From: an uncultured Bacilli bacterium
Lineage (GTDB): Bacteria; Bacillota_I; Bacilli_A; RF39; UBA660
Direction: 5' to 3'
DNA: 35,003 bases
NCBI GenBank assembly: GCA_944358815.1
Contig: CALVRX010000015.1
Coordinates: forward strand, 1 to 35,003
A model generated the notes under the pieces. That model did not search any database. It was not told where the DNA came from and saw nothing but the letters and a program-made list of their open reading frames with translations. Below, piece by piece: positions 14,431 through 35,003 of the stretch. Position 1 is the first letter of the stretch; every line of letters begins with the position of its first letter. A program made the position numbers and the translations under genes.

Positions 14431-15486
14431 TTAGGCTTCTTTTAATTTTCTATTTTGATCTTCAGTGATTAAGGCTTCAATAATATCTTCTAGATTACCT
14501 TCCATCACTTTATCTAAATTTTTAGTGGTATAACCAATTCTATGGTCAGTTACTCTATTTTGAGGATAGTTATAGGTTCTTATTTTTTCAGATCTATCAC
14601 CTGTACCGATTTTGCTTCGTCTTTCTGAGCCTAATTTTTCTTCTTGTTCTCTTAGTTTAGCTTCATAAAGTCTTGTTCTAAGCATTTGCATAGCTCTTTC
14701 TTTATTTTGAATTTGGCTACGTTCATTTTGACAAGTTACCACAGTTCCAGTTGGAATATGAGTAATTCTAACGGCACTATCGGTAGTATTTACACACTGT
14801 CCACCAGCTCCAGTACTACGATAAACATCAATTCTTAAATCACTTGGGTTGATTTCAACATCGACTTCTTCGGCTTCTGGCATGACTAAAACAGTGGCAG
14901 TTGAAGTATGAACACGTCCCTGCGTTTCAGTTACGGGTACTCTTTGAACACGATGAGCACCAGATTCATATTTTAATTTAGAGTAAACATTGTCCCCTTT
15001 TACCATGAATTCCACTAATGGAAAACCGCCAGCATCGGAATGTTCTTCAGATATAACTTCGATTTTCCAACCTTGTTTTTCAGCATATTTAGTGTACATT
15101 CTATAAAGATCACCAGCAAAAATATTGGCTTCGTCTCCACCAGCTGCGCCTCTAATTTCTACAATAACGTTTTTACCATCATTTGGATCTTTTGGAAGAA
15201 GAATTACTTCGATTTGTTTTTCTAAAGTTTCTTTTTCATTTGTTAATCTAGTTACTTCTTCTTTAGCAAAATCGCCTAATTCAGAATCTTTGGTCATCTC
15301 TTTAGCTTCTTCTAAATCTGATTCAATTTTTTTATATTGTTGATAAGCATCGTAAGCATCTTTTAAAGAGGCTTGCTCTTTTGTTAGTTTTAAAGTTTCT
15401 TTGATGTTACTTAAAACTTCTGGTTTACTAAGTTCATGCGCTAGTTCATTATATTTTTCTTCGATTGCTTTTAATCTTTCTAACAT
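14431..15486 (-). CDS. prfA: Peptide chain release factor 1
   Basis: 351-residue factor that reads UAA and UAG stop codons in the ribosomal A site and triggers peptide release. The stop-recognition loop PVT (184-186, RF1-type PxT) and the catalytic GGQ (228-230) are both present. The residue after GGQ is Cys ([13 protein letters not shown]) where His or Ser is commonest. The N-terminal helical domain (about 1-95) and the [12 protein letters not shown] segment match the family. The start at 15486 is chosen because AAGGGTGAT lies before it. The GTG at 15495 is inside that site. It is preceded by a clear sigma-A promoter and followed without a gap by prmC. Confidence 0.95.
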
Positions 15487-15510
15487 TTTTATCACCCTTT
15501 TGACTAATAA

Positions 15511-15539
15511 ATTATACTATATTTTATGATTTTTATCAA
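15511..15539 (-). promoter_or_regulatory. Sigma-A promoter of prfA-prmC-rnr
   Basis: On the - strand, TTGATA (15534-15539), a 17-base spacer and TATAAT (15511-15516), about 25 bases before the prfA start. Confidence 0.8.
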
Positions 15540-15547
15540 ATATTAGA

Positions 15548-15575
15548 AAAGCAAGTTAGTGATTTAACTTGCTTT
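15548..15575 (-). terminator. Terminator after the surface-protein gene
   Basis: Eleven-base perfect stem (15548-15558 with 15565-15575) with a six-base loop. The T-run on the - strand is short. It separates the surface-protein operon from the prfA promoter. Confidence 0.65.
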
Positions 15576-15579
15576 ATTT

Positions 15580-16476
15580 CTATTTTATAGTATATGGATC
15601 TGACTGGGTTCCACTTCCTGATAGTTTTAAATTTGAGGATAAATAGACGACCACATGGACGCCAATGCGCTTATCGTCCGCGAAGTGTTCGCCAATGGTG
15701 CCGCTTGTATCCACAATGTTCACATAGTGAGAATCGCCGTTATAAGGTGATAAGGTCCACCAATCCATACCATTAAACATCCATGTGCTTTTTCTACATG
15801 TACTATAATTATAGCTGAATTTGCGGTAAGTATTACAGTTCGTATTTGAATTTGTTCTTATATATTCACTAACTGTTGCTAAAGCTACTTTTCCATTCCA
15901 TTTCTTACTATTTTCATCATTTACTTGTCCACCCAAATCATTATTAAGCTCCGTTACTGCTCCTATACCCCAATCATGTGATACTATTTGACTTTGGGCA
16001 GTACTGTCTAACCCATTTAAATATTTGCCATTTAAATATGTATTAAGACTTGCATTTGCCCAATCATTAATCCTGTATGTATCCCATACTTGATTTTTCA
16101 TATCACTTGTTGACATTATTTTAATCGTTCCATCACATTCAACTGATATGATTCTCCAGTCGGCTATGGGTCCAATAAATGTTATATAATTATTGGGATT
16201 AGCTCCAGTAAAGAAATATCTACATTCATACGGGTCTTTTTCTAATTGACCATCTTCTATTACTTTATCAGCAGCGGTTTGAGTACATTCTTTATATAGT
16301 TCATCGATGGCACCTTTGACGTTTGTCGATTTTAAACCACTAGATGAATTATCATAAAAAACTTCATTACTTGGAAATGTTACAGCTGCATATACTCCAA
16401 TACCTACACATATTAAACCTACTACAGTAAAACTGATTAAATTAGTTTTTATAAACGAGATTTTATCTTTTCTCAT
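15580..16476 (-). CDS. Membrane-anchored surface protein, C-terminal lectin-like/DUF6273-type domain
   Basis: 298 residues. A short basic N-terminus is followed by one membrane segment (about 12-32, LISFTVVGLICVGIGVYAA), a stalk motif (SSGLKSTNVKGAIDELY), and a large outer domain starting near DPYECRYFFTG and ending VVVYLSSNLKLSGSG...DPYTI. The pattern of NDWANASLNTYLNG, HDWGIGAV, KWNGKVAL and WWTLSPYN recalls DUF6273/FISUMP-like ectodomains with a C-type-lectin-like fold (inference; no search done). A second family member lies at 34304-35003 and a stalk-only copy just upstream. The start at 16476 is chosen for AAGAGG upstream. Codons for about residues 244-277 are unusually G+C-rich and NNC-rich for this genome. 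The function is unknown; adhesion or ligand binding is a guess. Confidence 0.7.
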   Translation of the reverse strand: MRKDKISFIKTNLISFTVVGLICVGIGVYAAVTFPSNEVFYDNSSSGLKSTNVKGAIDELYKECTQTAADKVIEDGQLEKDPYECRYFFTGANPNNYITFIGPIADWRIISVECDGTIKIMSTSDMKNQVWDTYRINDWANASLNTYLNGKYLNGLDSTAQSQIVSHDWGIGAVTELNNDLGGQVNDENSKKWNGKVALATVSEYIRTNSNTNCNTYRKFSYNYSTCRKSTWMFNGMDWWTLSPYNGDSHYVNIVDTSGTIGEHFADDKRIGVHVVVYLSSNLKLSGSGTQSDPYTIK

Positions 16477-16489
16477 ATTTACCTCTTTT

Positions 16490-16687
16490 CTATTTACATG
16501 CGTTATATAATTCATCAACGGCGTTTTGGACATTAGTTGATGTCATGCCACTTACACTATGATCATAGGTAGTTTGATTACTTGGAAAATAGGTAGTTGC
16601 TGATACTCCTACTATGCCAAAGACAAATAAACCTAATGTAATTCCTATTAAATAGCTTTTGGCAAATTCTTTGATTTTGTTTAGCAT
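16490..16687 (-). CDS. Small membrane protein, stalk-only paralog of the next gene
   Basis: 65 residues: a basic N-terminus (MLNKIKEFAKSY), one membrane segment (about 12-31) and a short outer part YFPSNQTTYDHSVSGMTSTNVQ... ending DELYNACK. This aligns closely with the first ~65 residues of the downstream protein (FPSN, YD, SG, STNV, DELY and a Cys in register), but it stops where the large outer domain would begin. AAAGGA precedes the ATG, and its stop lies 13 bases before the next start, so the two are co-transcribed. It may be a truncated duplicate or a genuine small partner subunit. Confidence 0.65.
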   Translation of the reverse strand: MLNKIKEFAKSYLIGITLGLFVFGIVGVSATTYFPSNQTTYDHSVSGMTSTNVQNAVDELYNACK

Positions 16688-16738
16688 TTTTAAGTTTCCT
16701 TTCTATCTTTAGCTTTATATAACACAAAAATTACTTTC

Positions 16739-16778
16739 TGTAATACATTTTGTTTAACTTACGAATTGTATTACGTAA
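16739..16778. promoter_or_regulatory. Candidate operator between divergent surface operon and RHH regulator
   Basis: TGTAATACA (16739-16747) faces TGTATTAC (16767-16774) as an inverted pair, and TTACG (16759-16763) faces CGTAA (16774-16778). The repeats lie between the two divergent genes and overlap the likely promoters. Paired short inverted elements fit a ribbon-helix-helix dimer-of-dimers operator (inference). Confidence 0.5.
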
Positions 16779-16787
16779 ATTTATAAT
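16759..16787 (+). promoter_or_regulatory. Possible promoter of the RHH regulator
   Basis: TATAAT (16782-16787) with a poor -35 (TTACGA, 16759-16764) at a 17-base spacing. It overlaps the inverted repeats, which would allow autorepression. Confidence 0.45.
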
Positions 16788-16806
16788 TTAAGTAGTGGGG
16801 TGTGAT

Positions 16807-16998
16807 ATGGAAAAATTTAAATTACCAAGCAATGAGGATGAGCAATCAGTATTAAAAACTATTAGAATAAAGTTTGCTACTTTAAAACAAATTGAGGAAT
16901 TAGCAAAAGAAAGTAATTTATCGGTAAACAGAGTAATTAATGAATGTATAGAGTTTGCTCTTAAAAATTTAGAAAGTAAATCTGAAAAAGCAGATTGA
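16807..16998 (+). CDS. Ribbon-helix-helix (Arc/CopG-like) DNA-binding protein
   Basis: 63 residues. The segment LKTIRIKFATLKQIEELAKE, followed by SNLSVNRVINECIEFAL, fits a beta strand plus two helices of the Arc/MetJ fold: an alternating strand (TIRIKF), helix A (ATLKQIEELAKE), a turn (SNLS), and helix B (VNRVINECIEFALKNL). Such proteins dimerise and bind short inverted DNA sites. The start at 16807 is chosen over the GTG at 16795 because GGGGTGTG forms the ribosome binding site. It is transcribed divergently from the surface-protein unit across a region with inverted repeats, so it probably regulates itself and that unit (inference). No toxin gene follows it; the next element is a terminator. 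Confidence 0.7.
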   Translation: MEKFKLPSNEDEQSVLKTIRIKFATLKQIEELAKESNLSVNRVINECIEFALKNLESKSEKAD

Positions 16999-17007
16999 TT
17001 TATAAAA

Positions 17008-17036
17008 AAATACAGGCGAGTTTTCGTCTGTATTTT
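17008..17036 (+). terminator. Intrinsic terminator of the RHH gene
   Basis: Twelve-base stem (17008-17019 with 17024-17035) including one G-T wobble, with a four-base loop. T residues are part of the right arm. Confidence 0.7.
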
Positions 17037-17060
17037 GCATATTATAAGTAATGTTTAACT

Positions 17061-17085
17061 AAAAAAATCACCTAGTAAGGTGATT
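17061..17085 (-). terminator. Intrinsic terminator of rpoE
   Basis: Eight-base stem (17066-17073 with 17078-17085), four-base loop, run of seven T on the - strand. The ~100 bases between it and the rpoE stop hold no ORF or structure that I recognise. Confidence 0.75.
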
Positions 17086-17189
17086 AATAAGTTTAAATTG
17101 AAAATTATTGTTTTATATACGTTTTAATACTGATTGAACTGTCCTAAAATATGAAAAGGTTATTTTTTAATGCAGGTTATGGCAAAAAA

Positions 17190-18162: not shown

Positions 18163-20142
18163 ATGAAGAAGAAAAAGTCAAAGAAGTGGTTAATTGTTAT
18201 TTTGGGTATTATTTTCTTTTTCGTTTTAATTTACTTTGGTATTTATTTATATGCGAAGATGCAGCCAAAGTTACCAATTACAGGAGCAAATGGTTATCAT
18301 TTATATGATATTAATGGTGAGGTTTATACTGCTAGTTCTAATGAAAGTGTGGATCTTAAAGATATTTCCAAGCATTTGATTAATGCGACGATTGCAGTGG
18401 AAGATAAAAATTTTTACAAGCACCACGGTTTTGACTTTTTAAGAATTTTAAAGGCAATGTTTATTAATGTTAAATCTGGAGAAACTTTACAAGGCGCATC
18501 AACAATTACACAACAATATTCAAAGAATTTATTTTTAGATTTTGATAAAACATGGGACAGGAAAATAAAAGAGGCTTGGATTACGATTAGATTAGAGAGT
18601 CACTACAGTAAAGATGAAATTTTAGAGGGTTATTTAAATACAATTAATTATGGTGGAATTTTTGGAATTGAAAATGCGGCTAAGTATTATTTTAATAAAA
18701 AGGCAAAAAATTTAACTTTAGCTGAGGCTAGTATGCTGGCGGGGATACCGAAAAATCCGAGTAAATATTCACCACTGGTAGATGAGAAAAGTGCGAAAAT
18801 GAGGCAAAAAATTATTTTAGATGCGATGGTTAAGAATGGGTATATTACGCAAAACGAAGCAGATATAGCATATAATACTGAACTAGATTATGAAAAAAGC
18901 GAAGAAGAAGCTAATTTAAAAATGATGATGTATTATCAAGATGCGGTTATGGAGGAGCTTAATTCAATTAAAACTATTCCTTCTTCTTTTTTGGAAACTG
19001 GTGGGCTTAAAATATATACTAATTTAGATATGAAGGCGCAAAAGGCTTTAGAAGACAGCGCAAATAAGAATATTACTAATCCAGATATTCAAATGGCAGG
19101 TGTGGTTATGGATCCAAAAAGTGGCAAGGTGTTAGCTTTATCTGGAGGGCGTGATTATAATAAGAGTCAATATAACAGAGCAACGATGGCTAAAAGACAG
19201 GTGGGTTCCACTATTAAACCATTCTTGTATTACTCGGCTTTAGAGAATGGTTTTACACCATCAACGACTTTTACAAGTGAAAAAACAACTTTTAGTTTTT
19301 CTGGAAATAAAACTTATACTCCGAAAAATTATAATGATGAATATGCAAATGGTCCGATTAGTTTAGCAGCAGCAATTAGTTATTCGGATAATATTTATGC
19401 GGTAAAGACACATTTATTTTTAGGGGATAATGCTCTTCCCGATATTTTAAGGCGAGTTGGAATTGAGGAAGAGTTAAATCCACTACCTTCACTAGCACTT
19501 GGCGCTGAGGAAATTAATATGATGGATATGATGGCCGCTTATAGTGCACTGGCTAATGAAGGATATAAAGTTAAGCCATATTTTATAAGTAAAGTAACAG
19601 ATATGGATGGTAATATTTTATATGAATATAAGCCACAATTAGAAAATGTGTTAAATAAAAATACAGTGTATGTGTTAAATGAACTTTTAACGACGACTTA
19701 TGCGAAGGAATTTCAAGATTATAACACGCCAACTTGTCTTAGTATTGCACCAAAAATGACGCATAAGTATGCTTTAAAGTCTGGAACAACAAATACTGAT
19801 AATTTAATTTTTGGATATAACAAAGAATTAGTTGTAGGAATGTGGACAGGATATGATGACAATAAAGATGTTTCTAGTAAGGATAGTTCTAATTTAAAAA
19901 ATGCTTGGGTAGATGTGATGGAAAGTTATTTAGAGGGTAAAACTGATGAGGAAACATGGTACGAGACACCTAAAAATGTGGTTGGTGTAGCTATTGATCC
20001 AATTAGTGGTAAAGTAGCAAGTAATGGTGGTAAGGCAAAAGTTTTGTATTATATAAAAGGAACTGAACCTGTTGAAAATAAGGCTTCTTTAGATGAGGCT
20101 ATCCCTACGGTAAAAGTAGAAGATGAAAAAAATTCCCAATAA
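18163..20142 (+). CDS. Class A penicillin-binding protein (PBP1A-like)
   Basis: 659-residue bifunctional peptidoglycan synthase. It has a short basic cytoplasmic tail, one membrane segment (about 9-31), then a GT51 glycosyltransferase domain with catalytic Glu80 in AVEDKNFYKHHGFD and the motifs GASTITQQYSKN, RKIKEAW and GYLNTINYG. The transpeptidase domain has the active-site STIK (349-352), SDN (408-410) and KSGT (539-542). It polymerises lipid II and cross-links the stem peptides at the outer face of the membrane. No PASTA or fibronectin extension follows the transpeptidase. The ribosome binding site is weak (AAGTGATTGG). It converges on the second Fic gene with no bases between the two stop codons. 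Which PBP1 paralog it corresponds to cannot be decided here. Confidence 0.93.
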   Translation: MKKKKSKKWLIVILGIIFFFVLIYFGIYLYAKMQPKLPITGANGYHLYDINGEVYTASSNESVDLKDISKHLINATIAVEDKNFYKHHGFDFLRILKAMFINVKSGETLQGASTITQQYSKNLFLDFDKTWDRKIKEAWITIRLESHYSKDEILEGYLNTINYGGIFGIENAAKYYFNKKAKNLTLAEASMLAGIPKNPSKYSPLVDEKSAKMRQKIILDAMVKNGYITQNEADIAYNTELDYEKSEEEANLKMMMYYQDAVMEELNSIKTIPSSFLETGGLKIYTNLDMKAQKALEDSANKNITNPDIQMAGVVMDPKSGKVLALSGGRDYNKSQYNRATMAKRQVGSTIKPFLYYSALENGFTPSTTFTSEKTTFSFSGNKTYTPKNYNDEYANGPISLAAAISYSDNIYAVKTHLFLGDNALPDILRRVGIEEELNPLPSLALGAEEINMMDMMAAYSALANEGYKVKPYFISKVTDMDGNILYEYKPQLENVLNKNTVYVLNELLTTTYAKEFQDYNTPTCLSIAPKMTHKYALKSGTTNTDNLIFGYNKELVVGMWTGYDDNKDVSSKDSSNLKNAWVDVMESYLEGKTDEETWYETPKNVVGVAIDPISGKVASNGGKAKVLYYIKGTEPVENKASLDEAIPTVKVEDEKNSQ

Positions 20143-34303: not shown

Positions 34304-35003
34304 CTAGTTTATGGTATAAGGATTAGAACTACTACCATTTCCACCTGTAATTTTGATATTAGATGAAAGATAAACTGGCGGAAGTACATCTCCATATATA
34401 GTATCATTAACAGATGTATTAAAAAAGATTAACCCTCCAAAATTTAAATATACAGTGTCAGTAGCATTACTATTTGCTGACAAAGTCCAGCCAGTAATGT
34501 TTGCCCATATAGTACTATTGCATTTATTTGAATTAGCACTATTATAATTATCAGTTAATTTTTTTATCGTTCCACATCCTGTTTGATTACTGTTAGTTCT
34601 AATAATTTCGGATGCTGTTGGTAAAGCTATTTTGCCATTCCATTTAGTCGCATTTTCATCATTTATTTGGCCGGCTAAATCATTATTATTATTTGTGACT
34701 GCTCCTATTCCCCAATCATGCGCTACTATTTGACTTTTAGCTGTTGAATTTAAACTATTATAATACGTACCATTTAAATATGTGTTTAAACTGGCTGTTG
34801 TCCAATTATTTGTTCCTGATGAATTCCAGTTTATATCATTAAGTATTGTATTTTTCATTATTTTTATGGTTCCATCACATTCGGCTGATATAATACGCCA
34901 GCCGGCTTTTTCATTATTAAATGTTATATAATTATTGGGATTAGCTCCAGTAAAGAAATATCGACACTCATACGGATCTTTTTCTAATTTAGCATTTTCG
35001 ATT
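34304..35003 (-). CDS. Partial surface protein, paralog of the protein at 15580-16476
   Basis: The last 233 codons of a gene that begins beyond the right edge; the frame is open to the end of the window, so the Met at 34858 is internal. It repeats the landmarks of the other paralog in order: KDPYECRYFFTGANPNNYITF, WRIISAECDGTIKIM, WTTASLNTYLNG, SQIVAHDWGIGAV, TKWNGKIALPTASEIIRTNS, WTLSAN, and VYLSSNIKITGGNG...NPYTIN. The missing N-terminus presumably holds a membrane segment and a stalk (inference from the paralog). Composition is A/T-rich throughout, unlike the G+C patch in the other copy. A terminator follows. Confidence 0.8.
   Translation of the reverse strand, partial: IENAKLEKDPYECRYFFTGANPNNYITFNNEKAGWRIISAECDGTIKIMKNTILNDINWNSSGTNNWTTASLNTYLNGTYYNSLNSTAKSQIVAHDWGIGAVTNNNNDLAGQINDENATKWNGKIALPTASEIIRTNSNQTGCGTIKKLTDNYNSANSNKCNSTIWANITGWTLSANSNATDTVYLNFGGLIFFNTSVNDTIYGDVLPPVYLSSNIKITGGNGSSSNPYTIN

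Follow-up and report, generated by a model that had tools for sequence, protein, structure and literature searches.

This analysis revealed that a GC-rich patch in an uncultured bacterium of the Bacilli (RF39 lineage) is very probably the variable region (VR) of a gene targeted by a diversity-generating retroelement (DGR). It lies in the stretch analysed here, 35,003 nucleotides of contig CALVRX010000015.1, referred to as the window. In all likelihood the sequence was written by DGR retrohoming, and it is doubtful that it is still being rewritten. A compositional oddity in an AT-rich genome pointed in this way to a probable hypermutated gene, whose reverse transcriptase (RT) and template lie elsewhere or were not assembled. 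An earlier sequence-only reading had raised a DGR target as one possible cause of the patch, the least certain of those it offered. In favour of that guess are complete DGRs that target homologous DUF6273 genes in congeners, an RT of DGR type encoded by the genome itself and a gap-free match of the patch to the template class of the congeners. On the other hand, the genome's own template repeat (TR) was not found, its RT is a truncated one, and the patch shows only a weak adenine bias.

The sequence-only reading counted 51 G or C among the 100 bases of the patch against about 30% around it. Our counts agree, the flanking 200 bp containing 23.5% (15446-15645) and 31.5% (15746-15945) GC. When the 35-kb window, which has a mean GC content of 30.4%, was scanned, 100-bp stretches with at least 51% GC occurred only within 15604-15767, its GC maximum. 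Judged by composition, the GC content alone is only moderately surprising; in 9 of 200 trials with an order-3 Markov null, a GC count of 52 was reached at some point of the 35 kb. The strength of the observation is the codon pattern together with the location of the patch, rather than the GC peak. As had been estimated, 21 of the 34 codons at positions 244-277 end in G or C, and 16 end in C (NNC). NNC codons account for 15 of 32 codons in the patch versus 28 of 265 in the remaining gene (p = 2e-6). Four of the codons had been described as rare in neighbouring genes, which holds for CGC and GCG (1.1 and 2.8 per 1000 in the window's other genes), whereas GGC and GTC are less rare (9.3 and 13.6).

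Table 1. Coordinates of the target gene, its parts and its paralog in the window
Feature	Coordinates	Strand	Basis
DUF6273 target gene, 298 codons including start; ORF readable from 16533	15580..16476	-	Pfam DUF6273 match and ORF
N-terminal hydrophobic helix, probable membrane anchor	16378..16470	-	model helix 2-32, low confidence, pLDDT about 50-59
DUF6273 domain, probable C-type-lectin-like fold, residues about 65-297	15583..16281	-	VIA-align structural matches
Candidate VR, 34 codons co-linear with the congeners' template repeat	15652..15753	-	gap-free G017 TR alignment; shuffle score; paralog alignment
GC-rich, NNC-rich patch as first reported	15646..15745	-	51/100 GC, 16/34 NNC codons
Tail directly after VR, 52 bases identical to paralog C23b (18449-18500)	15600..15651	-	100% over 52 bp
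Paralog cut by contig end, AT-rich variable segment (30% GC)	34304..35002	-	57% identity; VR composition

The target gene scored 36.9 bits against the Pfam profile of DUF6273 (PF19789; curated cut-off 23.5). The AlphaFold2 model of its product, with a mean pLDDT of 83, was matched by VIA-align to the DUF6273 domain of the Thomasclavelia ramosa IgA peptidase (Z 16.4 over 191 residues) and to many C-type lectins (Z 5-7), the higher score being reached only with another DUF6273 domain. Foldseek returned just one significant PDB match for the model, so that the C-type-lectin likeness rests on VIA-align and on published models. The latter, made for phage DUF6273 targets, agree on a C-type-lectin-like fold and place the VR in a hairpin at the surface (PMC10743442). 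The N-terminal helix of the model suggests surface anchoring, and we infer that the product is a surface-anchored binding protein.

The assembly of this genome comprises 1.05 Mb in 50 contigs and is 63% complete. It contains 41 matches to the window gene, of which about twenty extend into the lectin part. Alignment of 19 of these genes showed one strongly variable segment, from W-T-L-S-P to Y-L-S-S, and this segment is the patch. The patch had been called the part most divergent from the paralog at 34304; the same is true with respect to all paralogs, between the conserved blocks WWTLSP and VVYLSSN. The segment is raised in GC in C13 (56 versus 31%), C47 (51 versus 31%) and C40 (44 versus 32%), and shows no such rise in C43, C10 and the 34304 paralog. 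A surface loop under ordinary diversifying selection, whose GC content peaks by chance, is a very improbable explanation of the patch. The Markov null does reach such GC values and variable surface loops are common to many families, but the same composition, codon pattern and template frame are found at this segment in paralogs and congeners, and a DGR cause is directly visible in the latter.

Thirteen third-position bases of the template can be followed through the family: 2 are changed in the C13 VR, 4 in the window VR and 9-11 in most AT-rich paralog VRs. VRs that keep these bases tend to be the GC-rich ones, the two measures being non-independent. This fits the idea, offered as such and not as a result, that VRs are written at high GC and then drift toward the composition of the genome. 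Leader-only copies of the family's N-terminus, ending in a stop, lie just 5' of full genes in the window (16490-16669) and on C40, C3, C41, C18, C37 and C23. On C41, a DUF6273-like segment is also found in a 737-residue protein with a prepilin-like N-terminus (MKNEKGFLLAEALIV; L040:14327-18281), adjoined by a similar protein of 573 residues.

With regard to the genus, relatives of the RT of this genome were found in 34 of 44 genomes, and self-comparison of the loci around such RTs yielded seven TR/VR pairs in seven congeners. In these pairs, 101 of 212 template adenines were changed versus 3 of 576 other bases, so that 101 of 104 differences fall at adenines. These loci are real DGRs, with near-repeats whose differences are almost confined to template adenines. 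Their VRs form the ends of DUF6273 or similar genes. The mean GC content is 49.7% for TRs and 58.2% for VRs (range 47-64% for both together, 55-64% for VRs), while the surrounding loci have 27-31%. The congener RTs belong to the same PHROG as Brt of BPP-1, score above the RVT_1 cut-off and carry the [IV]GNxTSQ and YMDD motifs. Where loci were read closely, target and RT are separated by an Avd gene, accompanied in some loci by a MutS-domain-I-like gene. Three Avd proteins were tested against bAvd, two scoring 47.0 and 44.9 bits (cut-off 40) and the third, at 38.3, just below; congener Avd falls into phrog_3206 (Avd), the PHROG of BPP-1 Avd. Two or three tandem TR-like units were seen between target and RT at L088:5515-6395, L089:9538-10473, L090:3137-3793 and L094:5106-5883, so that several templates may be present in some congener DGRs.

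Matches to a second template class, which translates for example to LSPNSSNSNNVFNVNNNGNVNNNNANNTNNAVRP, occur in 23 of the 44 genomes, VRs and TRs both counted. In G017, the TR of this class adjoins the RT on contig C2, and three VRs on three other contigs (C4, C1 and C20) differ from it at 55 of 108 adenines and 2 of 198 other bases. In G012, six VRs similar by comparison with the G017 TR lie on six contigs. As these VRs sit on other contigs, the congener DGR acts in trans on dispersed DUF6273 genes. Two features of such loci deserve mention. At L097:5639-6301 (G017 C2), an IS605 OrfB-like N-terminus runs directly into the template repeat, at the position of the near target in other species. 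Unmutated template copies, with the TR leader in front and a target-gene tail behind, lie 311 bp 3' of two remote VRs (L169:1257-1358 on G017 C4 and L170:1208-1309 on G017 C1), with similar copies in L126, L128 and L136; local templates, recombination products and assembly chimeras are the candidates for their origin.

No gap is needed to align the window VR (LSPYNGDSHYVNIVDTSGTIGEHFADDKRIGVHV) with the template frame of G017, and the VR scores about 12 s.d. above shuffled sequence against the template class, whose composition and frame it shares. Compared with the foreign G017 TR, it is changed at 21 of 36 adenines versus 24 of 66 other bases (uncorrected p = 0.027), the latter being far more non-adenine differences than are seen in true TR/VR pairs. 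When codon positions 1 and 2 are compared with the consensus TR of the congeners, 18 of 33 adenines versus 6 of 24 other bases are changed (uncorrected p = 0.024). Two other VRs of the genome show the bias clearly, the corresponding counts being 22 of 33 versus 1 of 24 for the C40 VR (uncorrected p = 9e-7) and 16 of 33 versus 1 of 24 for the C13 VR (uncorrected p = 2e-4); several genes and templates entered these comparisons. The adenine bias of the window VR against foreign templates is weak. As had been noted, its end reads VHVVVYL in place of the VRPVVYL type, and this V-H-V for the usual V-R-P is a change that template adenines do not explain.

The absence of an RT from the window, reported by the sequence-only reading, was borne out, and the genome-wide search it had suggested for an RT and a template near-repeat was successful in its first part. 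A single RT, of the DGR type, is encoded on contig C41. It lacks about 40 N-terminal residues, and no intact DGR RT was found in the 63%-complete assembly. At L040:7501-8947 this RT overlaps a target-leader ORF of the DUF6273 family, and, barring a local assembly error, the locus is probably a decayed DGR. The RT is of the other lineage and only 48% identical to the RT that goes with the matching TR class in G030. Searches of the incomplete assembly with both TR classes revealed no TR for the window VR, and an adenine-tolerant TR search over stretches of the genome returned paralogs only. The best non-paralog matches, on C7, lie within ordinary sequence and were rejected as chance; mutagenesis at template thymines (antisense) was also rejected, its matches being no better. 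Neither Avd nor a second RT was found in the 63% of the genome that is assembled. The TR and RT of the window VR would have been lost or be missing from the assembly. Contigs C3, C10, C13, C15, C23, C37 and C39 terminate in or beside DUF6273-family genes, a pattern that assembly breaks at variable or repeated genes would produce; with a genome that is incomplete and contigs that end at this family, loss and non-assembly of the driver are both compatible with the data.

Within the DGR reading, we regard it as rather probable that the VR is a frozen relic, written by an ancestral DGR that then decayed and subject now to ordinary mutation only. The truncated RT running into a target-leader ORF, the missing TR and Avd and the many non-adenine differences from the congeners' TR are in line with this, as is the C13 VR, which looks nearly the same as its G033 counterpart, as if static since the species split. 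On the other hand, a second intact DGR may be missing from an assembly whose contigs break in this very family, and most template-like third positions are kept in the patch, which, with 4 of 13 changed, argues that it is not old.

The window gene lies between prfA and rpoE (15496-17189), an interval that holds a DUF6273 gene, other genes or nothing among congeners and is empty in several other species. In G021, the homologous gene at this site is identical at 121 of 181 residues before the VR, 9 of 33 in the VR and 9 of 23 in the tail, with a GC content of 56% in the VR versus 30%. Compared with the foreign G017 TR, the G021 VR is changed at 12 of 36 adenines versus 12 of 66 other bases (p = 0.07), an adenine bias that is only suggestive. 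Outside the tail shared with C23b (Table 1), the window gene and C23b are identical at 325 of 489 nucleotides (66%). As the 52 bp are identical while the rest is this divergent, the DUF6273 paralogs appear to exchange tails.

Such recombination, and the gain and loss of DUF6273 genes at the rpoE-prfA site, would be compatible with a cassette imported from a higher-GC relative or another paralog without any retroelement. We consider this very improbable for the patch. The shared tail ends at the VR and is itself AT-rich, a DNA search of the patch through the genus found no full-length relative in 44 congeners, and this segment is also raised in GC in G021 and in several of the paralogs. A higher-GC donor was dropped from consideration, the loci of relatives being as AT-rich as given above while their templates and VRs are not. 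The recombined-cassette idea is thus not needed for the patch and survives in a limited form outside it: at most, donor import may account for the tail of the gene.

The mechanism that we propose follows that of the BPP-1 DGR, for which retrohoming is established. The DGR of congener genomes comprises RT, Avd, TR and often the MutS-domain-I-like gene. By analogy with BPP-1, TR RNA would be copied into cDNA with random bases opposite template adenines, and the mutated cDNA would take the place of the VR with which DUF6273 lectin genes end at their 3' side, whether these genes adjoin the TR or, in trans, lie on other contigs. Templates consist of runs of AAC/AAT (Asn) codons in a fixed frame of Ser-Pro, Val, Gly and Ala codons, with about 50% GC. 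Replacing A by any base leaves NNC codons and raises the GC content to 55-64% in a 30%-GC genome. The GC-rich, NNC-rich patch would then result from the loss of adenines from an Asn-codon template of about 50% GC.

DUF6273 DGR targets and DGRs with remote targets are already known. The former include the tentaclins of gut phages nd4 and nd12 (PMC10743442) and targets in Faecalibacterium prophages (PMC11792537). Like the window gene, the phage targets have a DUF6273 domain, for which a C-type-lectin-like fold is modelled, with the VR at its C-terminal end, and the RT of nd12 is about 37% identical to that of this genus and in the same PHROG. In contrast, the phage systems are phage-borne, with one or two targets adjoining the RT, whereas here the genes are chromosomal, beside housekeeping genes, with about 20 dispersed paralogs and a template of their own that was not seen. 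The BPP-1 DGR of Bordetella phage (NC_005357) shares the RT and Avd PHROGs and the adenine-specific TR/VR differences with the congeners, but is phage-borne with a single annotated target beside the RT. In Treponema denticola, of another phylum, remote chromosomal targets are served by one core DGR and leftover targets persist in genomes without RT or TR (PMC4891356). Single TRs serving many VRs have been published (PMC6642488), and Roux et al. stated of their own survey that VR searches adjoining the RT miss remote targets (PMC8144416). A literature search for DGRs in RF39 found nothing, and a dispersed chromosomal DUF6273 family in this Bacilli group was not found in the literature searched. 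We know of no DGR link for the DUF6273 domain of the T. ramosa IgA peptidase. That domain, which has the same fold as the window protein, is part of a protease (9qa6; PMC12402451).

A broader picture, which we hold only tentatively, is a chromosomal surface-variation system of these uncultured Bacilli in which about twenty dispersed DUF6273 lectins have their binding faces rewritten in trans by one or two DGRs. The lectins would also swap tails and be gained or lost at insertion sites, rpoE-prfA being one, and the GC content of a VR would record the time since it was last rewritten. Provided that the family is active, the lectin repertoire of these Bacilli could alter binding while gene content is unchanged. 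A DGR here would serve a genome-wide surface-protein family in a little-studied uncultured Bacilli group.
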